DNA of 41,247 nucleotides from Lachnospiraceae bacterium (GTDB lineage: Bacteria > Bacillota > Clostridia > Lachnospirales > Lachnospiraceae): contig JAEELH010000230.1 in NCBI GenBank assembly GCA_016288825.1, positions 1 to 41,247 on the forward strand, read 5' to 3'. The notes beneath the pieces were generated by a model. That model was not told the DNA's origin. It did not search any database and saw only the letters and a list, made by a program, of their open reading frames with translations. Numbering within the stretch: position 1 is the stretch's first letter; each line of letters opens with the position of its first letter. The translations under genes and the position numbers were made by a program. This document shows, piece after piece, positions 4,675-32,971 of this stretch.

Positions 4675-6081
4675 TCATCTGCCTGCAGCATTAGCCGCAT
4701 TTCTCTTACTACGACACCTTCCTGCACACTCCATCACAAATCTTGATGGCCTGCAGGGGGTGTTTTTGAATTTAACGGGAACAGAAATCACAAGGCTGTG
4801 TCTTGCTCTTGTCATGGCAACATAGAACATACGCCTCTCTTCTTCGATCTCATCTGCATGAACCGCATGTCGATCAGGAGTTATTCCCTCACATGCACCT
4901 ATTATTATAACATGATCAAATTCAAGTCCTTTGGAACCGTGAAAAGTAAAAAGACTGACTCTTTCGTTTGTACTTTTTCTTGTCCTTACATATCCTATTC
5001 CGACTGAATCCAAGGCGTGGGAAATAGCAGATGCCTGGGATTGATTTCTGAAGAGCACAGCTATCTCGGATACATTAGCTCCGTTGTCCATAAGCCACCT
5101 TATGTATCCTGCGCATCTCTCCGCTTCACTTTGTTCGTCAGGACTTTCCGTATAATAGATCCTTCCCTTTAACCGGCTGAAGGATTTGATATCCTTTTTA
5201 TAACGTTTTTTATTGTTATCAATAAGATAGGATGATGCCTTTGTGATATCACTGTCACATCTGTAATTCGTAGATAATCTGTAAATGCTGCATCCCTGAT
5301 ATATCTTGGGAAAATCCAAAAGCAAAGAGGGATTGGCACCTCTGAACCTGTAGATAGACTGATCATCATCACCTACCAGAAAAAGATTATGATAACAGAT
5401 CTTCCTGATCACCTCAAACTGCATATCATTCATATCCTGAGCCTCGTCCACAAGTACGAATCTGTACCTGCGGGCATATGCCTCAAGAATGTCTGGATCA
5501 CGGTTAGAAGCCATATAGACCATGTAGATCATATCGTCAAAGTCTATGGCTCCGCGACGCCTTTTTTCCTCCTGATACATAAAGCAAAGCCTGTAAATAA
5601 GCTCTGAGGTAAAGGGAGCCGGAACAGATTCCGTAAGCTTGCCCGTATTCTGATAATAACTTATCAAACCAAGCAGTCCCAGGGCATCTTCCCTATCACA
5701 GACTGTTTTATCATAACCCATTTGATCAAGAGCGGATTTGAGAAGTCCATACTTTTCGTTCTCACTGAGTATCCTGGGATCATGTACGATCCCGGACATC
5801 TTAAGGATGTGATAATAGAAGGAATGAAAAGTAGCAAAAGTTACGCCACGACATGCACAGTCCATAGCCAAAAAGCGCTGTTCCATCTCTCGCGCAGCCT
5901 CTCTGGTAAATGTGATCACAAGGATTTGCTCTGCCGGAACCTGACGCTCTGAAATAAGCGCAGCTATGCGTCTTGTCAGGACAAAAGTCTTGCCGGCTCC
6001 CGGAGGAGCCAGCACTAAGGCAGGACCTGTAAAATGATCTATTGCGCCTCTCTGGGCGCTGTCAGCCGAAAGGCCGCTCAT
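4675..6081 (-). CDS. Compact UvrD/Rep/PcrA-type SF1A ATP-dependent helicase
   Basis: Walker [70 protein letters not shown]. Only 468 aa. ATGA overlap with gltX. Confidence 0.9.
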
Positions 6082-7532
6082 GCAGCGCCCTCAAGCTTTT
6101 TAATTGCTGCTTCGATACGTCTAATGGATTCATCCTTTCCAAGGATTTCCAAAAGCTCAGTTGCTCCTCCGGGAGTCATAGCCTTGCCTGACAATGCTGT
6201 ACGGATAGGCCAAAGAACTGTACCGTTTTTATACTCATGCTCGGAAGCAAAACCCGAAAGCAATGCATAAAGGCTGTCGTTGGTGTAGTCTTCATGAGAC
6301 TGAAGCACAGGCAGAACTCCCTTAAGAACTTCAAGGGAATTCTCCGTATTAGTCTTCATCTTTTTGTGTGTATAAATATCGATATCGTACTCAGGAACTT
6401 CCTGGAAGAAATCAATGATATCGGGAATATCATCATATGTCTCGATACGGCTTTGGATAAGGCCGAGGATCATATCCTTTTTGCAGTCGCGGGTTATGAC
6501 CTTGTCTACATAAGGCATGGCTTTTTCTGCAAAAACAGAGGGATCCATCTTTTTGATATACTCACCGTTCATCCAGCGAAGCTTAACAGTATCGAATACC
6601 GCGGGAGCCTTGTTGATATGATGATAATCAAAAGCCTCGATAAGCTCCTGAAGGCTCATGATCTCCTGCTCTCCGAGAGGGCTCCAGCCAAGAAGAGCAA
6701 CGAAATTTACAATTGCCTCTCTGACAAATCCGGCCTCAAGAAGATCCTCATAGGATGAGTGACCGCTGCGCTTCGAAAGCTTCTGATGCTCCTCATTGGT
6801 AATAAGAGGGCAATGGATATATACCGGTACCTCCCATCCAAAAGCTTCATAAAGCCTGTTATACTTGGGTGAGGACGAAAGGTATTCATTACCTCTGACA
6901 ACATGGGTAATTCCCATAAGATGATCATCAACTACATTGGCAAAATTGTATGTAGGATATCCGTCGGACTTGATAAGGATCATGTCATCAAGTTCAGCAT
7001 TGTCTACAGTAATATCTCCATAGATCTCATCTGAAAAAGTAGTTGTTCCCGTACGGGGATTATTCTGTCTGATACAGTAAGGTTCACCGGCATCCAACTT
7101 AGCCTGGATCTCCTCCTTGGAAAGAGAAAGACAGTGCTTATCATAGATGGATATTTCCTTGCCGGAAACTGTCTGCTTAAGGCTCTCAAGCCTTTCTTTT
7201 GTACAGAAGCAATAATATGCCTCTCCCTTATCTATAAGCTTCTTTGCATAATCAAGATAGATACCCTGAGCCTGTCTCTCGCTCTGAACATAAGGACCAA
7301 CTCCGCCGTCCTTATCGGGACCCTCATCATGGATAAGTCCGGTATCGGACAAAGTGCGGTAAATGATATCTACTGCACCTTCAACGTATCTTTCCTGATC
7401 CGTATCCTCGATCCTAAGGATGAAATCACCGCCCTCATGCTTTGCTATAAGGTAGGCATAAAGTGCGGTACGGAGGTTTCCGACGTGCATCCTACCTGTG
7501 GGACTGGGGGCAAATCTGGTTCTGACTTTCAT
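6078..7532 (-). CDS. gltX: Glutamate--tRNA ligase
   Basis: 484 aa. [22 protein letters not shown] and [19 protein letters not shown]. Confidence 0.96.
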
Positions 7533-7587: not shown

Positions 7588-8769
7588 TTATAAGTGTTTC
7601 CTCAATCCGCATATACGGTCAACCGAAGTAATGATCTCAAGGATCTCAGGCACATAATAGTCATGGGCCTTCATCATCCTGTCGATCTCGTCTCTCTCGC
7701 TCTTTACCGAGCGTGTATTTTCTGCGATCTCATCCCGAACCCGGGAGCGTCTCGACACAAGGTTCTGACGAACCTCTTTCATATCCTCTTCGTCATGAAG
7801 AGCACCGGCCTGATCAAGCCAGATCCGCTTATCATATAGATCAACCGGTTCCAAAAGCCTCATCATCCGGCCGTTGTAATACTCAAGATCGGAATTATCC
7901 CTTTCGTACTGATTTCTTGACCGGACAGTTTCCTGGTACTTTTCATAGATATACTGCAGTTCGTGTGAACTCTTAACGCCATACTTTTGCTGCTCATACA
8001 TGATCGCCCGGGTAACATTGGCATATTTCATCCTGGAAATATTGAGCATATTGACCGTATTGCCAAGTGATCTTCCCATGGAGATACTCTTAGACCTGTT
8101 ACCGCTCTGCCAGGCAAAAAGAAACAGACCTATGAGAGCGCCTGCAAAAATGGTCCCAACCATAAAAGGCCTGACCCTCACATCTCCGGAAAGAGAAAGC
8201 ACGTATAAAAGTACGAATACGGAAAAAAACATGACAAGAAAAAGTATGGAGATCGTCCTTATGATACGGTTGGAGGATTTGATCTCATCTCTGTCTACTT
8301 CGATCTCTCCCCTGTCCGCTTCAAGAATATGCATATTTTTTTCACAATTAGCCTGATAACGCTCATTATCCCGCATGCGGCCTATAACCTGAGGCATGAC
8401 GGATTCATTTTCCTCGATCATCAAAAACTGATCATCGGTAATGGACTTGGGCTTCTGTAAAAAGTTATTTCTGGCCCTCTCCAACTTCAGGATCTGTCCT
8501 GCCACTATACGAAGTTCCTTAAGGTCTGTATCCGGGAGTTTCTGTATCTTGAGGATGTCATCAAGATAGCTGGTAAGAACCCTGTACTCCGCCTTAAGAG
8601 CCTCGATCTCCTTGGTCATGCCTATAATATGTTCGCAGGAATCAAGGATATAATGCTCGATCTTTTTGGGATTGTCCCAGTCGTCGATGGCATGGATCCG
8701 GTCCATCACCCGTTCAAAGGAAGCGTCTATATCCTCATTGCGTTTTTTCTTGTTTCCGAAAAATATCAT
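7588..8769 (-). CDS. Hypothetical coiled-coil protein with two central transmembrane helices
   Basis: Start taken at MIFFGNKKKRNEDIDASF, 1 nt after the upstream TPR-gene stop. TM segments ISILFLVMFFSVFVLLYVL and MVGTIFAGALIGLFLFAW, flanked by charged helical regions. Confidence 0.75.
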   Translation of the reverse strand: MIFFGNKKKRNEDIDASFERVMDRIHAIDDWDNPKKIEHYILDSCEHIIGMTKEIEALKAEYRVLTSYLDDILKIQKLPDTDLKELRIVAGQILKLERARNNFLQKPKSITDDQFLMIEENESVMPQVIGRMRDNERYQANCEKNMHILEADRGEIEVDRDEIKSSNRIIRTISILFLVMFFSVFVLLYVLSLSGDVRVRPFMVGTIFAGALIGLFLFAWQSGNRSKSISMGRSLGNTVNMLNISRMKYANVTRAIMYEQQKYGVKSSHELQYIYEKYQETVRSRNQYERDNSDLEYYNGRMMRLLEPVDLYDKRIWLDQAGALHDEEDMKEVRQNLVSRRSRVRDEIAENTRSVKSERDEIDRMMKAHDYYVPEILEIITSVDRICGLRKHL

Positions 8770-8770
8770 A

Positions 8771-9595
8771 TCAAATCTTACACAACCTGTTATATTCAAT
8801 CTTCCAGTTATCTACTATGTTCTCAACAGCCTTGCGATATGCTTCCTGCCTGCTATGGTCCGATTTCAGACGTGAAAGATGCTGGTCAAAATCCCTGATA
8901 GCATCAGACTGATAAGCATTTTTAGCATGCTCTATGACACTCTGGGCAAAGGCAGCAGGCACTCTGTACTTCTCTATGATCTTATTTGCCCCTTCCTCAT
9001 CTCCATCACAGATGTATGAACATATAAGGGCTGTCAGGGTAACCTTTTTCTGATTGCGCTTATAGGCGGCCTCAAAATACTCCTTGGCCTCATCGAAAAA
9101 GAAAAGCCTGGCAAAACAAACACCGAGATTATGACTTATATCGCCGTAAAGTGCGGAAGGCAGTTCCTTATCCTCAATAAGATCCTGATAAGCGTAGATA
9201 GCATCCACGATCCTCTCCTTGAGAAGAAGCTTGTCCGCACGAAGTTTTTTACGCTCCTGATCAGAATAGGTCTCGTAACGCTCAATAATAGATACCACAT
9301 TCCTGATCTCGCTAACCGTAAGGTAACCGCAGGCCGAAAGCACATGCTCTACGAAAACATGGAGAGGAACCTCCTCGCCGATAAGGGCCAAAAGTTCTGT
9401 CTCCAGGTCCTTCATGTCAAGTTCCCTGCCTATCCAATGGCAAAGCTCCCGTCCGGCAAAATCGGCATCCAAAAGATCTGAATTATTTTTGACATAATAA
9501 CACAGTTCCTCAAGGGAATAGATATTGAGGGAAAGTGGCTCTATATAAAAGGGATTGGCCGCGATGGGCTGTCTGCAAAGTATCAGCTCTCCCAT
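8771..9595 (-). CDS. Hypothetical helical-repeat/TPR-like protein
   Basis: 274 aa. TPR-like pattern in YGDISHNLGVCFARLFFFDEAKEYFEAAYKRNQ. Confidence 0.7.
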   Translation of the reverse strand: MGELILCRQPIAANPFYIEPLSLNIYSLEELCYYVKNNSDLLDADFAGRELCHWIGRELDMKDLETELLALIGEEVPLHVFVEHVLSACGYLTVSEIRNVVSIIERYETYSDQERKKLRADKLLLKERIVDAIYAYQDLIEDKELPSALYGDISHNLGVCFARLFFFDEAKEYFEAAYKRNQKKVTLTALICSYICDGDEEGANKIIEKYRVPAAFAQSVIEHAKNAYQSDAIRDFDQHLSRLKSDHSRQEAYRKAVENIVDNWKIEYNRLCKI

Positions 9596-9603
9596 AATTC
9601 CTC

Positions 9604-10845
9604 CTAGGCTACTCCAATAGTATGCTCCCAGACCTTACCGCTGGACGGAGCGATCTCTCCGAAGCCCAGATCCCGGATGGTAATCCGGATCTTTTTGTCC
9701 GAAAGCGGACGTGCTTCGATCCTTAGTCTCGACATACGATCCTCACGCTTTGGCATATCCGTAAGCTCAAGAACCTCGACTCTCGACTTACGGCTTTCGG
9801 GTCTTGAGATCCAGCATTCAAACTCGCTGCTCCCATCCAAAATGACCTCGCACTCTCCCTTGGTGTCATACCAGCTGTCACCTGCGGAGATGAGCGTAAG
9901 GAATTCCATTTTATTTTTATCTATGACCTTGAGGGCCACATTGATCTTAAGTTCATTGTCACCGATGTAAACGTAGGGCCACTCAGTCTTGCCGTCTTTG
10001 ATCATTCCGGCGTAGCAAGCCCCCTTTGAATAAAGGTTTTTACCCATGAAAACCCTGCGTCCTCTGCAGAGCCTGGAAAGGGACACCTTCATCCAGTCAC
10101 CGTCAAAACCGTCTCCCGTCAAGAATACTCCCGAAAAAGCATCATCACCGATAGTTTCCGCAATAACCGAATCAAAGGAAAGATCACGGTTATCAAGAGT
10201 CACGGCCGCGCTGCCCTGTGTAAGAGTAACCACCATGGGGGTTGTATTGGTGTTGCGATTCAATCTGCAGTAGCGAATGTGGCTGCCTGCAAAATCGTAA
10301 AGCATAACGTCCTGATTATAAATCTGCTGGCTCTGACTAAGGGTGTAATAATAAAAACACTCTCTTTTATCGATCACCAGAAGAGATCCGCCGGAAAGCC
10401 CCAGTCTGTTGGCCACAACGGAAAACAGCTCCACTACCTGAAGCGAAACCTCGTCCACACAGATAACCAGCTTTTCTACGGGAGCTCCGGCATAAAGCTG
10501 AGCCGAAAGCAAAAGCAGCTTGTGGATGAAGATGAAAAGCAGTTCCTTCGCAGTGTACTCCTCTCCGTCCACAATGATCATCTCATCCGACAAAGCTCTG
10601 GAATAGATCCTGTCTATTCCGTCAGCAGCCCCGAGAGAAACCTGCTTTTTAGCCTCATTGCCAAAGTACCACTGGCCTATCCCCCGCTTTTTCGCAAGAT
10701 AGGTTGGGATCTGATACGCTTCGGAACCCATCACCGTGGAAACCGTCTTTGGCTCCTCCATCTCCTGTGAGTAAAAGGAAAGAAGAGTATATGAATCATT
10801 TATATCGATGCCGTAATAGGCACCATCCATATCTCCTATATCCAT
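9604..10845 (-). CDS. DUF5716-like protein with divergent actin/Hsp70-fold ATPase motifs
   Basis: 413 aa. YYGIDINDSYTLLSF (phosphate-1-like), VMLYDFAGSHIRYCRL (phosphate-2-like), VFLTGDGFDGDWM (adenosine-motif-like). The DUF name is from recalled family/neighbourhood knowledge and was not searched. Confidence 0.6.
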   Translation of the reverse strand: MDIGDMDGAYYGIDINDSYTLLSFYSQEMEEPKTVSTVMGSEAYQIPTYLAKKRGIGQWYFGNEAKKQVSLGAADGIDRIYSRALSDEMIIVDGEEYTAKELLFIFIHKLLLLSAQLYAGAPVEKLVICVDEVSLQVVELFSVVANRLGLSGGSLLVIDKRECFYYYTLSQSQQIYNQDVMLYDFAGSHIRYCRLNRNTNTTPMVVTLTQGSAAVTLDNRDLSFDSVIAETIGDDAFSGVFLTGDGFDGDWMKVSLSRLCRGRRVFMGKNLYSKGACYAGMIKDGKTEWPYVYIGDNELKINVALKVIDKNKMEFLTLISAGDSWYDTKGECEVILDGSSEFECWISRPESRKSRVEVLELTDMPKREDRMSRLRIEARPLSDKKIRITIRDLGFGEIAPSSGKVWEHTIGVA

Positions 10846-10854
10846 AATTTCTCC

Positions 10855-13800
10855 TTAAATGATATTGAAAAGTGTCTTGGAAAGCTCCATTAGAGCCTGA
10901 TAGTCCTTCATATCTCCTATCAGATCCGTATCATTCTGATACAAGAGATCGCTCTCGATCTGATTGAGACGGGCATATCTGGAGCCATGTCCGCTTTCTA
11001 TTACGTCAAGGTACGAGATCTGACCGCTGTCAACTACCTCTCCGTCATCTTTAAGTACGATTTCGTACGTAACAGTCTCTCCGAAAAAGACAACCATCTC
11101 ATGAACATAGATGCCGTCATACATCTCTATCATATCGGCTTCCTTATCGGGAGCGCCCTCCTTATGATATCTGATGCCAAGACGATTGCCCGGATCATAC
11201 TTAAGTTCAACAAACATCTTGTCATAAAAATGATATCTGATGATAAGCTTTTCATCCAGGTATGAGTAAAAGGCAAAGTACTGACCCTTGAGAACATTTT
11301 CACGGATAAGTTCAGACAGGATATCATGCTGTGCATCCGAAAGCTTTTCGGAAGTCGCAAGAAATCTTGAAAGAGATATCCTCATGGTGTCCGAAATACG
11401 ATTACCTTTTTTATGCAAGAACTGTATGTAGGTAAAAAGTCCCTTGGGAACAGTCTTGTCGTAAAGCAGATATTCATGGGCATAGAAATTAACATAGGCC
11501 TCAACCAGCATGCGGTTGGGGTCACGCCTGATATAGCTTGCAAATATCTGATCAATATTGTCATCATAACCGCCCACATAAAGGATCTGGGTAAGGATCC
11601 TCTCCTCCAATCCTCTTGTATCAAGAGCTCTGGCAGAGGAATATTTCCAAACTCTGATCATTCCGGATGTAGGTCCGGTATAGTACTTCACCAGATACCC
11701 CAGTGTCTGCTCCGAAGAAAGGAAATTATCCATCAGATAAGCACAAAGCCTGATAAGAAAATCATCAACCGTATCCGGATCGGAATCTATCCTCTCGGTA
11801 GCTATCCTAAGAAGGATATTCATAGGTACCATCTGACCGTTGCGGCAAAGTAATCTCTCATAAGCCTCGGGGATCCTGTCAGTCAGCACAAGCTGCTCGA
11901 TTATAACGGCTATCATGCCGGATGAAAGACCTCTATCATCGGTTATGCTGGAAAGCTCGTCCGAGATCATCTCCTCCCTGGTATGCTCCTTAAGAACCGA
12001 TAAAAACAGGGGATACTTTTGCTTTTTATAAGCAAGTCGGATCGACTCATCCTGTGCAAATCTCTTGATAAGTTCGAGATCGGACTCGGCAAAATCAGAA
12101 ACCTGCCTCTTTTCATCCAGATCCGTAAGGAAAAACTCCAGGGAATTTTTGCCATGTTCCTTAAGCTTTGAAAGCACATGACCGCCCACAATAAGCGGCT
12201 GCACATAGTAGGTTGTATCCTCTGACAAAAGGCCCTCATCAGTAGTATCCAAAAATACTACCGAGTCGTCATCCACTATGCGAACAAAGGCACACCCATC
12301 CACAACAGGAGCCACCTCTGCGCCTGCCCTTTTCTCATCGATGACCATAACCCGGGTAGCATTGACATTGAGGCAGATGATCTTTTTCATGTAGAAAAGA
12401 CGGCCCATATGGAGGGCTACATCCTCGTCAATAAGCCCCTCGTTAAGAAGGTTCTGATAGAGAACAGCCAGATTATCATCGATCTTTTCGGCCCTCATGG
12501 CCTCCAGGGCAAAATGCTCTATCTGCTTATGATATGCCTCGTAGATCTGAGGCTCCTTTTCCTTGTAGGTGACAACATTGGCGTAAAGATAAGCCTTTTG
12601 CTGCCAGGGCAGAGAATTCTCGTAGGAAAAATAAAGGAGAAGAAGTCTCGGCAGCATCCTGATATCATTGAGCGCAGTAGAGGAAATATAGGCCTCATAC
12701 AATCCGCTCAACCTCATCTCCTTTTCAATAGCGATCTCATACCACTGTCTGTACTTTTCACCAATACAATTGCAACGGAGCAAGTACGAAACCAGAGTTG
12801 AAAGATAATCATCCTTTTCAGTTTTTTCAAAGGCATATACAAGGATCTCATATAATCTCTCGTTATAAACGGATACCCCTGCGGCAAGAGAAGTTACCTG
12901 CATAAGCATATGACTGGTAAGTCTGTCATGCCGTCTTGCGTAAGTCAGCATCCTGATAGCAAACCCATCAAGAGATCCGATAAGAAGCGGATCCTGAACA
13001 TAGATCTCCAAAACCTCAAGATAAAGAATGGGTGATGTAATGCCACTATCGATCCACTGTCTGATGGCTGAAAGCTTGCGCTTGGAATCACCTATATACT
13101 CCCGCCTCAGGAAAAGCAGAAACCAAAAGATCCTGTAATCTTCGGGAAGCAGCCTGAATATCCCCTCGATCTCAGCCGTAAGCCTGTCAACATAAGCTTC
13201 CTCCGGCTCGATAAGTGTACAAAGGTATAAAAGATATGCCCACTCAAAGCTCTTTTTATTTTCGATAAGACGCTTTTCATCGGATATGATCCAAAGGCCG
13301 TCCTGACGTCTTCCGTTGACGATAAGAGCCTGTGCTTTGTACAGCTTAAGGAAATGATCATCCGGTGTATCCTCAAGCATCTCATCAAGGTAAGCAATGG
13401 TATCGTCGCACCACTTCCCGGTGGAAATACTGCGAAGCCTGAAGTCCTCATAAATATTGAGAAGAGCCAGAGTCTTACGCTTTGAAGCCACATCAAGAGC
13501 AGTCCGCTCCTCGTCCTTACGATGAGTGGAAATAATAAATTCTATTGATTCATGAAAACCTGTGGAGTCAATGGAAATCGTAGCCTTATTGATACCATCA
13601 TGAAGCTTGTCATAATGGATAAAAACAGGCAATTCCAAAGATGAACCAAGAAAATAATCGGGTGTCACAAGCGACGGTTCAACCGTAATGATGGGTGAGT
13701 CCGAAGTGATACTCATCTCAAAGTATCCCCAATTACTTTTTGTGAGTTCGACTATCTCTTTAAGATTCTCGGTAACCTCATAAAACTCACGTCTATGGCA

Positions 13801-14367
13801 GATAGCCGAAAACTCCAGACGTTCTTTTTGACTGGCTGAAACAAGAAACGACTCCAGATTGATAAGAGTCCTGTCGCCCTCAGCAAAACCAAGATAAAGC
13901 AACCTGTATTTAGCATCAAGATTGCTCATAAAGTCGGCAAATGCCTGGGAATGAAATAAGATAAGAGCTTCTCTGGGTCTTTCCTTGCAAAGAGCTGTAA
14001 AGTCCTCCAGGGATCTGATAGGGCCAAGGGATGACTCAGGATATTTTCTGTCTATGATAACCTCATATGGAAGCGAGGTCTCAATAAGACCTGCAACAAT
14101 ATCAACCTCTCCCTTAAGGGAGTCTCCCGCTCTGAAGCCTGCAACGGAAGCATGAATCCGAATTCGGACTTCATTGCCCTCAAAATTGGGTGCAGGTACG
14201 GTAACATAGGGATTGGATGAATAAACAATGCCCCTCAGAGGCTCTTCCTGATCGCAACTGATGACAAATTCACCCTCTGCATCATCACCCTCTGTAGTAT
14301 GAAGTTCAATTCTGTCTCGGTCAAAGGAAAGCTCCGGAACCTGGTCCCTGAACTGGTCCTCCGACAT
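10855..14367 (-). CDS. Giant DUF5717-like protein (N-terminal beta-sandwich-like region plus long helical-repeat region)
   Basis: ~1170 aa from MSEDQFRDQVPELSFDRDRIEL, with GAGG ~9 nt upstream. The longest ORF extends to 14439. Long region of TPR-like helical repeats. Confidence 0.65.
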   Translation of the reverse strand: MSEDQFRDQVPELSFDRDRIELHTTEGDDAEGEFVISCDQEEPLRGIVYSSNPYVTVPAPNFEGNEVRIRIHASVAGFRAGDSLKGEVDIVAGLIETSLPYEVIIDRKYPESSLGPIRSLEDFTALCKERPREALILFHSQAFADFMSNLDAKYRLLYLGFAEGDRTLINLESFLVSASQKERLEFSAICHRREFYEVTENLKEIVELTKSNWGYFEMSITSDSPIITVEPSLVTPDYFLGSSLELPVFIHYDKLHDGINKATISIDSTGFHESIEFIISTHRKDEERTALDVASKRKTLALLNIYEDFRLRSISTGKWCDDTIAYLDEMLEDTPDDHFLKLYKAQALIVNGRRQDGLWIISDEKRLIENKKSFEWAYLLYLCTLIEPEEAYVDRLTAEIEGIFRLLPEDYRIFWFLLFLRREYIGDSKRKLSAIRQWIDSGITSPILYLEVLEIYVQDPLLIGSLDGFAIRMLTYARRHDRLTSHMLMQVTSLAAGVSVYNERLYEILVYAFEKTEKDDYLSTLVSYLLRCNCIGEKYRQWYEIAIEKEMRLSGLYEAYISSTALNDIRMLPRLLLLYFSYENSLPWQQKAYLYANVVTYKEKEPQIYEAYHKQIEHFALEAMRAEKIDDNLAVLYQNLLNEGLIDEDVALHMGRLFYMKKIICLNVNATRVMVIDEKRAGAEVAPVVDGCAFVRIVDDDSVVFLDTTDEGLLSEDTTYYVQPLIVGGHVLSKLKEHGKNSLEFFLTDLDEKRQVSDFAESDLELIKRFAQDESIRLAYKKQKYPLFLSVLKEHTREEMISDELSSITDDRGLSSGMIAVIIEQLVLTDRIPEAYERLLCRNGQMVPMNILLRIATERIDSDPDTVDDFLIRLCAYLMDNFLSSEQTLGYLVKYYTGPTSGMIRVWKYSSARALDTRGLEERILTQILYVGGYDDNIDQIFASYIRRDPNRMLVEAYVNFYAHEYLLYDKTVPKGLFTYIQFLHKKGNRISDTMRISLSRFLATSEKLSDAQHDILSELIRENVLKGQYFAFYSYLDEKLIIRYHFYDKMFVELKYDPGNRLGIRYHKEGAPDKEADMIEMYDGIYVHEMVVFFGETVTYEIVLKDDGEVVDSGQISYLDVIESGHGSRYARLNQIESDLLYQNDTDLIGDMKDYQALMELSKTLFNII

Positions 14368-14409
14368 ACGCCAGATCCTCTTTCGCAAGGTGAAACCTCT
14401 TCTAAAACA

Positions 14410-14447: not shown

Positions 14448-14560
14448 GTATACATACAGAGGTAATTATAGCATATTTTGCTATCTATGTCATCTTTAGA
14501 TATACTATATTATACGATAATTAATCACTTTACACGCGATAATACTACTATGCTCTTACG

Positions 14561-14840
14561 CTCCCGCGTGGATACCGTCCCACTCTGCGGTGCTGACGCT
14601 CCTCGAGCGGGTGCCCATCCACGCTCGCGCCTTACTATGCGTATGTGTTTTATTAAGCAAACAGGCTTGAGCATTTCGCTTTAAATGGCGCGAGCAATGG
14701 GTAAGATGCGCCCGGGTTGCCACCTGGCAAGAGGGCGTATGGGGCGCAGAACGTCCGGTGGACGTTCGATTTGCGCCGACCGAAGTGGAACGTAGACCCC
14801 ATTGCGGGAGCCATAGGAAAGGCATAATTCGCTCAAGCCG
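14561..14840. repeat. Intergenic multi-hairpin structured element (candidate structured leader RNA or MITE/REP-like repeat)
   Basis: GCGTGGAT(14566)/ATCCACGC(14617); GGCTTGAGC(14664)/GCTCAAGCC(14831); TTGCCA-CC-TGGCAA; GAACGTCC-GGT-GGACGTTC; GGCGCA/TGCGCC. GC-rich against AT-rich flanks. Confidence 0.6.
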
Positions 14841-14874: not shown

Positions 14875-15963
14875 ATGATCACACACAAGGACCACTTTCA
14901 TGGCAGCGATCTTGAAAAGATCGAATCGGTTTACGGCATCAAAAAGGAAGACATCTTAAGTTTCTCCGCCAATGTAAATCCTCTCGGTATATCTCCTTTA
15001 GTACGGGAGCAGATCTCCTCTCACATAGATGTGATCGCCAGCTATCCGGATCGGGAGTACACCACTCTGCGTACAGCCATTGCAAATTATGTTCATACCG
15101 AGCGTGACCGCATTATCGTTGGTAACGGATCAACCGAGCTCATTTCCCTATTTGTGGATATAACCCGTCCCAAAAAGGCTCTTATCCTGGGTCCTACTTA
15201 TTCCGAATATGAGCGTGAAGTATCACTTGTCGGAGGCAGATGTTCCTACTATCCTCTTCGCAATGACTCCCACTTTAATCTGGACATAGATAATTTTTGC
15301 TCCAAGCTTTCCGATGATATCGATCTTGTTATCATCTGCAACCCCAACAATCCTACATCGGGCTGCATAACCAAGCGCGAAATGCGTCAGATACTTGATG
15401 TTTGCAAGCAGCATGCCATCTATGTCATGGTTGACGAGACCTATGTAGAATTCGTTAAACATCCTGAGGAAATATCATCTGTATCTCTTACGGAATACTA
15501 TAATAATATTATTATACTCCGTGGTACCAGCAAGTTCTTTTCCGCACCCGGCCTTCGTTTGGGCTATGCCATCACAGGCAATTACGATCTTGTAAAAGAG
15601 ATCACCCAGCATAAGAATCCCTGGATGGTTGGTTCCCTTGCAGAGGCTGCCGGAGAGATCATGTTCTCGGATACGGATTACATCGAAAAGACCAGAGAAC
15701 TTATCGACCGCGAGCGTGACAGGATGTATGACCTTTACAGTGAATCTGACCGCTTCATCCCCTACGCTCCCAGCGCCAATTTCCTTCTCCTGGAGATCAC
15801 AGAGGACGGCGTCACCAGCCGGATGCTTTTTGACAAGGCCATCCAAAACAGGATGATGATCCGGGACTGCTCCACCTTCCCCTTCCTGGGTGACAAGTAC
15901 ATCCGTATCTGCTTCATGAATCCGGAAGACAATGACAGGCTTTTCAGAGTCCTAACTAATTAA
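14875..15963 (+). CDS. Aminotransferase class I/II, threonine-phosphate decarboxylase (CobD)/histidinol-phosphate aminotransferase-like
   Basis: FSANVNPLG, ICNPNNPTSG, VDETYVEF, RGTSKFFSAPGLRLGYA (PLP lysine region). Upstream RBS AAAGGA. Confidence 0.85.
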   Translation: MITHKDHFHGSDLEKIESVYGIKKEDILSFSANVNPLGISPLVREQISSHIDVIASYPDREYTTLRTAIANYVHTERDRIIVGNGSTELISLFVDITRPKKALILGPTYSEYEREVSLVGGRCSYYPLRNDSHFNLDIDNFCSKLSDDIDLVIICNPNNPTSGCITKREMRQILDVCKQHAIYVMVDETYVEFVKHPEEISSVSLTEYYNNIIILRGTSKFFSAPGLRLGYAITGNYDLVKEITQHKNPWMVGSLAEAAGEIMFSDTDYIEKTRELIDRERDRMYDLYSESDRFIPYAPSANFLLLEITEDGVTSRMLFDKAIQNRMMIRDCSTFPFLGDKYIRICFMNPEDNDRLFRVLTN

Positions 15964-31045: not shown

Positions 31046-32227
31046 TTAGACCTCTTTAAAGTCCGCATCAACGACATCGTCGTCAGATCCGCCTGCAGAC
31101 GCACCTGCGTTCATGTCAGGGCCGGCGCCAGCGCCCATATCCGGTGCAGGACCACCCTGTGCATTGGCTGCCTGAGCCTGCTCGTACATCTTTGCGAATA
31201 CCTTCTGAGCACTCTCCTGAAGCTTCTCTCTTGCAGCCTTGATCTCGGCAACATCAGATTCGCTCATGCTCTCAGCATTCTCATGCTTGTTAACCAGCTC
31301 CTTAAGTGCATTAAGGTCAGCTTCAACAGCACTCTTGTCAGCTGCATCGATCTTATCTCCGACTTCGGACAAAGCCTTCTCTGTCTGTACTACGAATGCA
31401 TCAGCATCATTCTTGGTATCAACAGCTTCCTTACGCTTCTTGTCCTGAGCCTCGAACTCAGCTGCTTCTTTAACAGCCTTCTCGATATCCTCATCAGACA
31501 TGTTGGAGCCGGCTGTGATAGTGATGTGCTGCTCCTTGCCAGTTCCAAGATCCTTAGCGGATACATTAACGATACCGTTGGCATCGATATCGAAGGTAAC
31601 CTCGATCTGAGGAACTCCGCGGCGTGCAGGAGGGATTCCGTCGAGACGGAACTGTCCCAGTGACTTGTTGTCACGCGCGAACTGTCTCTCACCCTGTACT
31701 ACGTTGATATCAACTGCTGTCTGGTTATCCTCTGCTGTAGAGAAGATCTGGCTCTTCTTTGTAGGGATAGTTGTATTTCTCTCAATAAGTCTTGTGGCAA
31801 CACCACCCATTGTCTCGATGGAAAGTGAAAGGGGTGTTACGTCAAGAAGAAGGATCTCTCCCGCACCTGCATCTCCAGCAAGCTTTCCACCCTGGATGGA
31901 AGCTCCGATAGCTACGCACTCATCAGGGTTAAGGGACTTATTGGGCTCCTTGTTGGTCAGCTGCTTAACCTTTGCCTGAACTGCAGGGATACGTGTTGAA
32001 CCACCAACGAGAAGGACCTTGGAAAGGTCTCCTGCTGTAAGGCCTGCATCCTTAAGAGCGTTCTGAACAGGGATTGCTGTACGCTCTACAAGATCAGCTG
32101 TAAGTTCATCGAACTTAGCGCGTGTAAGGTCCATATCAAAGTGCTTAGGGCCCTCAGCTGTAGCTGTGATGAAAGGCAGGTTGATATTGGTTGTTGTAGA
32201 AGGAGATAGTTCCTTCTTAGCCTTCAC
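31046..32227 (-). CDS. dnaK: DnaK C-terminal fragment (rest of NBD plus SBD), GTG-initiated ORF after an in-frame TAG
   Basis: [30 protein letters not shown]...[13 protein letters not shown]...[14 protein letters not shown]. Same frame as the upstream fragment (31046-32938 = 631 codons including the internal TAG). Confidence 0.93.
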
Positions 32228-32236
32228 TGCAGCTTC

Positions 32237-32971
<735 letters not shown>

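Follow-up and report, generated by a model that had tools for sequence, protein, structure and literature searches.

A four-gene operon of Lachnospiraceae encoding a shortened Hsp70 relative, probably the reduced form of a larger Hsp70 operon

Introduction

In Ssz1 of the ribosome-associated complex (RAC) and in the Hsp110 group, the Hsp70 fold serves as a regulator or adaptor within a dedicated complex, and ATP hydrolysis is dispensable. Hydrolysis by Hsp70s requires Lys70, Glu171, Thr199, Asp201 and the GTT motif of phosphate loop 1. The Lachnospiraceae, in which the operon described here is found, rank among the dominant butyrate producers and plant-fibre degraders in the guts of humans and animals. 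The closest published gene neighbourhood is the HSP70-GrpE theme of the GAP1-N2 systems, in which HSP70 and GrpE are encoded together with a second HSP70 devoid of a substrate-binding domain (SBD) and with an FNIII protein fused to DnaJ or TPR (PMC7159879). Our literature searches, whose coverage ended at subscription-only papers, yielded one unrelated mention and no functional description of DUF5716 or DUF5717, as a sequence-only reading of the locus had already stated; no description of Hsp70-GrpE-VWA operons was found either.

Results

A conserved four-gene operon

The window, i.e. the whole 41,247-nt stretch of Lachnospiraceae DNA that was analysed, contains four co-directional genes, called A to D here, separated by gaps of 9, 8 and 1 nt (Table 1). 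Of 62 Lachnospiraceae loci surveyed in relatives, nearly all of them assigned by their labels to this family or to its genera, 52 have A-B-C-D in one direction; the median gaps are 11.5, 3 and 14 nt. Since gene order is kept in so many relatives, the arrangement is not due to chance, and the single operon put forward in the sequence-only reading was confirmed, as was a conserved co-occurrence of the four genes. Nine of the remaining ten loci harbour A-B-C, with D undetected (contig end or divergence), and A is split in one. In the draft genome of Roseburia inulinivorans DSM 16841 (L060), both A and B are split into several ORFs, which probably reflects sequencing errors and possibly decay. A divergent hisC-like gene is present upstream in all 38 loci that have a recognised upstream marker gene. 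The gltX gene is the downstream neighbour in the window and in about half of the relatives. It is close in 13 loci and further off in 14, and is probably a neighbour, not a part of the machine.

Table 1. Features of the operon and its flanks in the window
Feature	Coordinates	Strand	Basis
Gene A, DUF5717 scaffold, 1177 aa from TTG	10855..14388	-	Pfam, AF2, Foldseek, homologue starts
Gene B, DUF5716, degenerate Hsp70 (strongly supported), 413 aa	9604..10845	-	PF18980, AF2, Foldseek, hhalign
Gene C, short TPR protein, 274 aa	8771..9595	-	Weak TPR Pfam matches, hhalign to C'
Gene D, coiled-coil protein with central two-TM hairpin, 393 aa	7588..8769	-	Hydropathy, hhalign to D'
Probable operon promoter, ATGACA-17-TATAAT, extended -10	14465..14493	-	Consensus scan
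Divergent hisC-like PLP aminotransferase gene, locus marker	14875..15963	+	Pfam, neighbourhood comparison
gltX, downstream neighbour	6078..7532	-	Pfam, neighbourhood comparison

In at least 34 of 52 A homologues the residues at the start position are (L/V)RKRI, which implies a TTG or GTG start codon, and the TTG at 14388 is preceded, at a distance of 7 nt, by a ribosome-binding-like AGAAGAGG. On these two grounds we moved the start of A to this TTG, most likely the genuine one, from the ATG at 14367 assumed earlier. The candidate promoter is sigma-70-like, with 11 of 12 consensus matches, approximately 75-105 nt upstream of the TTG. Between A and the divergent hisC-like gene, positions 14540-14840 are GC-rich and contain several overlapping inverted repeats; an Rfam scan of the window detected no RNA element, this stretch included. 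Two other genes of the window deserve mention. That of a UvrD-type helicase (4675-6081, minus strand) codes for 468 aa, versus ~600 aa in many relatives, and is possibly shortened. The dnaK gene (31046-32938, minus strand), apparently within the usual hrcA-grpE-dnaK-dnaJ order, is interrupted by a single in-frame TAG, which separates the ORFs 31046-32227 and 32237-32938 and may be an assembly error or a genuine nonsense change.

DUF5716_C was detected in 293 of 299 Lachnospiraceae genera (98%), nearly always in single copy. Outside the family, no DUF5717_N was found in 399 phylum and 245 class genomes except for one partial match below the cut-off; these draws included few sister-family genomes, and relatives in those families were detected when the order was searched with the B profile. 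Synonymous sites are saturated between the window and its nearest relative, so that dN/dS is not computable for this pair.

Evidence that B is a shortened Hsp70

The B protein matches PF18980 (DUF5716_C) at 3e-101, with 338.7 bits for a cut-off of 34.7. Its AF2 model, built with 50 homologues, has a pLDDT of 90.2 and displays the NBD pattern (residues ~8-298) followed by a beta-rich domain corresponding to SBD-beta (~300-411), with no alpha lid. DnaK and other Hsp70s were the best Foldseek matches, with E-values down to 6e-19, and the best 50 matches listed were all Hsp70 entries or Hsp70-containing complexes. The actin/Hsp70-type fold previously proposed for this 413-aa protein is thus borne out by the model. 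TM-scores with Hsp70 structures were near 0.5 and the rmsd for the entire chain was high; this would fit a different domain orientation and a trimmed NBD.

None of 50 B proteins gave a direct match to PF00012 in Pfam scans, and the homology therefore needs two intermediates, both encoded in operons of sister families (see below): the orthologue B' and its neighbour Hsp70-2. A direct sequence or profile search of B against the PDB returned marginal DnaK matches (E 0.16-0.8) that are unusable alone. In hhalign profile comparisons, B aligned with B' at 1.5e-45, B' with Hsp70-2 at 2.5e-68, and B with Hsp70-2 at 1e-20 over family profile positions 13-411, SBD-beta included; B' aligned with DnaK at 2.9e-18. 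In addition, one B' orthologue (L070:9285-10853) matches both DUF5716_C (1.5e-26) and HSP70 (1.4e-17) in Pfam. This chain from B through B' and Hsp70-2 to DnaK, together with the doubly matching protein, indicates that B is an Hsp70 by descent. Sequence profiles and the predicted fold thus strongly support the view that B is a shortened Hsp70 without the lid and not a generic actin fold.

Catalytic residues of B

We aligned 13 B sequences with the DnaK proteins of two sister genomes. At DnaK positions, Lys70, Glu171, Thr199, Asp201 and the GTT of phosphate loop 1 are replaced in all 13, the alignment of the catalytic Glu being offset-sensitive, with a conserved Glu two residues downstream (residue 162 of the window protein). 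The equivalent of Asp8 in phosphate loop 1 is retained in 13/13 and 48/50 B sequences, the first glycine of the adenosine loop is invariant, and Asp194 of phosphate loop 2 is mostly kept. In place of GGSTR, B proteins harbour an acidic nine-residue loop, GDGFDGDWM, invariant in 50/50 sequences, and mean conservation is highest in the beta domain. A binding surface thus seems to be under strong selection, and hydrolysis under none. Nevertheless, as B keeps Asp8 and mostly Asp194, nucleotide binding and even residual turnover are possible. All the catalytic residues compared are retained in Hsp70-1, Hsp70-2 and Hsp70-3 of the sister operons, and B' is intermediate. Pfam detected neither a J-domain partner nor GrpE in the four-gene operon.

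Predicted features of A, C and D

The A protein is covered by DUF5717_N (PF18984, 8e-211, 702.6 bits) and DUF5717 (PF18983, 8e-76, 255.6 bits), both for a cut-off of 25. Its AF2 model (pLDDT 87, pTM 0.59) is composed of two beta-sandwich domains, a long TPR-like alpha-solenoid, and central and C-terminal beta domains. Foldseek matches were structures rich in ASH/SPD-2-like domains (~1e-7) and TPR scaffolds, among them the Ski complex and NatA; the likeness is one of fold, not of family membership. The beta-sandwich/TPR scaffold deduced earlier from the sequence agrees with both analyses.

C gave only weak TPR matches in Pfam. It aligns with its sister-family counterpart C' at a probability of 99.7 and 9e-27 (hhalign). 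C' has ~387 residues and several clear TPRs; C, with 274 residues, is a shortened TPR protein.

D belongs to no Pfam family and aligns with D' at 1e-37 (hhalign). Hydropathy analysis places two hydrophobic helices at residues 173-191 and 202-220, and two TM segments were predicted for 48 of 52 homologues, consistent with the membrane anchor that had been postulated. D is thus a two-TM hairpin between two charged coiled-coil arms, so that both arms should lie on the same side of the membrane, probably the cytoplasmic one. No convincing TM segment was found in A, C or nearly all B homologues, and inspection revealed no signal-peptide-like start in the operon proteins.

An expanded operon in sister families

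We found 12 related loci in several families of the same order, one of which (L078) is incomplete. They encode A, Hsp70-1, a GrpE-domain protein, B', Hsp70-2, Hsp70-3-VWA, C and sometimes D. Hsp70-2, the protein at the GrpE position and B' are each present in 12/12 loci, Hsp70-1 and Hsp70-3 in 11, and D adjoins the operon in only four. A is often split into two genes and, in several sister loci too, the hisC-like gene is next to it. Hsp70-1 and Hsp70-2 have ~558 and ~545 residues, respectively. The GrpE-position protein is helical. Of the five scanned, four have a C-terminal GrpE domain (Pfam, 8e-15 to 2e-9), and the fifth (L076) gave no GrpE match. In Hsp70-3, a VWA domain replaces the lid, with a MIDAS-type DTTGS motif in 9/10 sequences. 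Besides its unusual architecture, Hsp70-3 (L069-L080) is very strongly conserved, at 78% mean column identity, beside fast-evolving partners. Neither operon version contained a recognisable J-domain protein; an HPD triplet suggested a J domain in one sister C protein, and Pfam found none there.

Among genomes of the order, Hsp70-3-VWA was found in 49 of 105 from outside the Lachnospiraceae and in none of 120 Lachnospiraceae. It was also absent from 148 class and 280 phylum genomes at E 1e-130, a cut-off that would miss divergent members and for which the search of the order served as a positive control. In seven Lachnospiraceae genomes, searching with PF00012 returned DnaK, in some genomes a second Hsp70 of ~570 aa, and MreB-type proteins; no paralogue of the operon Hsp70s was detected at the locus.

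Phylogenetic analyses placed Lachnospiraceae B as sister to B' of family f144 (support 100/97), although the B branch is long and its exact attachment could be affected by evolutionary rate. Hsp70-1, Hsp70-2 and Hsp70-3 each form one clade. In the f144 genome, Hsp70-1 and Hsp70-2 are still encoded, alongside a short GrpE protein and an Hsp70-3 whose reading frame is broken. B' and Hsp70-2 have in common an N-terminal extension and their tandem position. These sequence comparisons strongly support the window operon being a reduced form of the sister-family operon, the direction of change, reduction and not expansion, being based on a single close outgroup family, f144, and on deeper families. 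In the simplest history, Hsp70-2 would have been duplicated and one copy would have decayed to B' before the losses; this scenario is well supported but not proven, owing to the long branches. The active Hsp70s and the GrpE protein would have been lost on the Lachnospiraceae stem.

Sporulation and motility

A role in sporulation was considered and discarded: Spo0A is present in 42 of 49 genomes with the sister-family system versus 41 of 56 without it (p 0.15), and several Lachnospiraceae without Spo0A retain B. A flagellar role was likewise rejected, with B retained in Lachnospiraceae without flagellin. Sporulation or motility alone is thus not supported as the role of the operon. As a separate observation, in sister families flagellin occurs in 46 of 49 genomes with the full Hsp70 operon versus 33 of 56 without it (p 3e-5, uncorrected for phylogeny), and in family f151 most genomes have either both or neither. 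This association concerns the sister families and was not seen in Lachnospiraceae.

Discussion

We consider it probable that the operon specifies a membrane-tethered complex derived from an Hsp70 system, with B as a pseudo-Hsp70, and that it was reduced from an eight-component operon. From gene order we infer that A, B, C and D form a complex, which would bind protein clients. D would anchor this complex in the membrane through its hairpin, with the coiled-coil arms probably in the cytoplasm; A, the large protein, would serve as scaffold, with C as an accessory TPR component. B has probably retained the ability to bind something, in its cleft and via SBD-beta, without hydrolysing ATP. It would act as an ATP-independent client-binding or regulatory subunit, following a logic similar to that of Ssz1 and other pseudo-Hsp70s, and might either hold a client or pass it to the ordinary DnaK-DnaJ-GrpE system; it might also regulate DnaK or play a structural part. 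The chances appear even for a broader proposal, namely that a dedicated, previously undescribed Hsp70 machine of the order, comprising three Hsp70 paralogues of which one is fused to VWA, a GrpE fusion and a giant scaffold, became an ATPase-free, membrane-anchored core at the origin of the Lachnospiraceae, needed by nearly every member.

The sequence-only reading had envisaged an ATPase machine or a cytoskeleton-like assembly. The former is at odds with the loss from B of the residues that make Hsp70 an ATPase. B might yet be a working, unusual nucleotide-driven Hsp70, with nucleotide held on the GDGFDGDWM loop and Asp14, and with binding or slow turnover driving NBD-SBD allostery of A, C and D. 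The retained Asp8 equivalent, the invariant adenosine-loop glycine and the invariant acidic loop would all suit such a protein, but with Lys70, Glu171, Thr199, Asp201 and the phosphate-1 GTT all replaced we regard it as unlikely. An actin-like filament or envelope cytoskeleton is by far less probable still. The fold common to Hsp70 and actin and the presence of a membrane anchor might evoke one; nevertheless, B lies on the Hsp70 branch with an SBD-beta, no MreB, FtsA or PilM is among its best 50 Foldseek matches, and nothing found points to filaments.

A translation-linked quality-control complex, by analogy with RAC and its pseudo-Hsp70 Ssz1, could be imagined from the position of gltX directly downstream in many relatives and from the Ssz1/RAC structures among the Foldseek matches of B. 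However, gltX is distant or unseen in many loci, all Hsp70s score similarly against B, and no J-protein or ribosome-binding feature was seen, which leaves this idea improbable. We hold an equally low opinion of a conflict, defence or cell-suicide module related to the GAP1-N2 neighbourhoods with HSP70, GrpE and TPR/FNIII proteins, whose part list is similar (PMC7159879): no GTPase or GAP1 was found among the window neighbours and sister-operon proteins scanned with Pfam, PADLOC gave no convincing match for A, B, C or D, and a near-universal, single-copy gene set at a fixed locus is unlike defence islands.

Returning to the membrane-tethered pseudo-Hsp70 complex, the presence of the unit in 98% of genera, with its scaffold gene unfound outside the order, makes it likely to be a core trait of the family. 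The larger operon of the sister families, in which three Hsp70s are intact and a GrpE-like partner is present, points to a core, so far unstudied, chaperone-derived machine. The operon has so far been known by DUF names only, and viewing B as a catalytically dead Hsp70 would turn it into a testable chaperone question. B and its fully armed sister-family relatives would form a natural series in which Hsp70 function passes from ATP-driven to ATP-free.

Compared with Hsp70/DnaK (PF00012), B has the NBD lobes and SBD-beta in the same order, with homology established through B' and Hsp70-2; it differs in being ~200 residues shorter, in having no alpha lid, in the loss of most catalytic residues and in not being recognised by PF00012. 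In contrast with Ssz1 and Hsp110, whose partners are unrelated to those described here, the gene for B shares a bacterial operon with those for a membrane anchor and a DUF5717 scaffold. Like the present system, the GAP1-N2 neighbourhoods of firmicutes bring together an Hsp70, GrpE, an incomplete second Hsp70 and a TPR protein with beta domains (PMC7159879). Unlike those neighbourhoods, which include GTPases and GAP1, none of which was found among the proteins scanned here, the present locus occurs in nearly every genus of one family.
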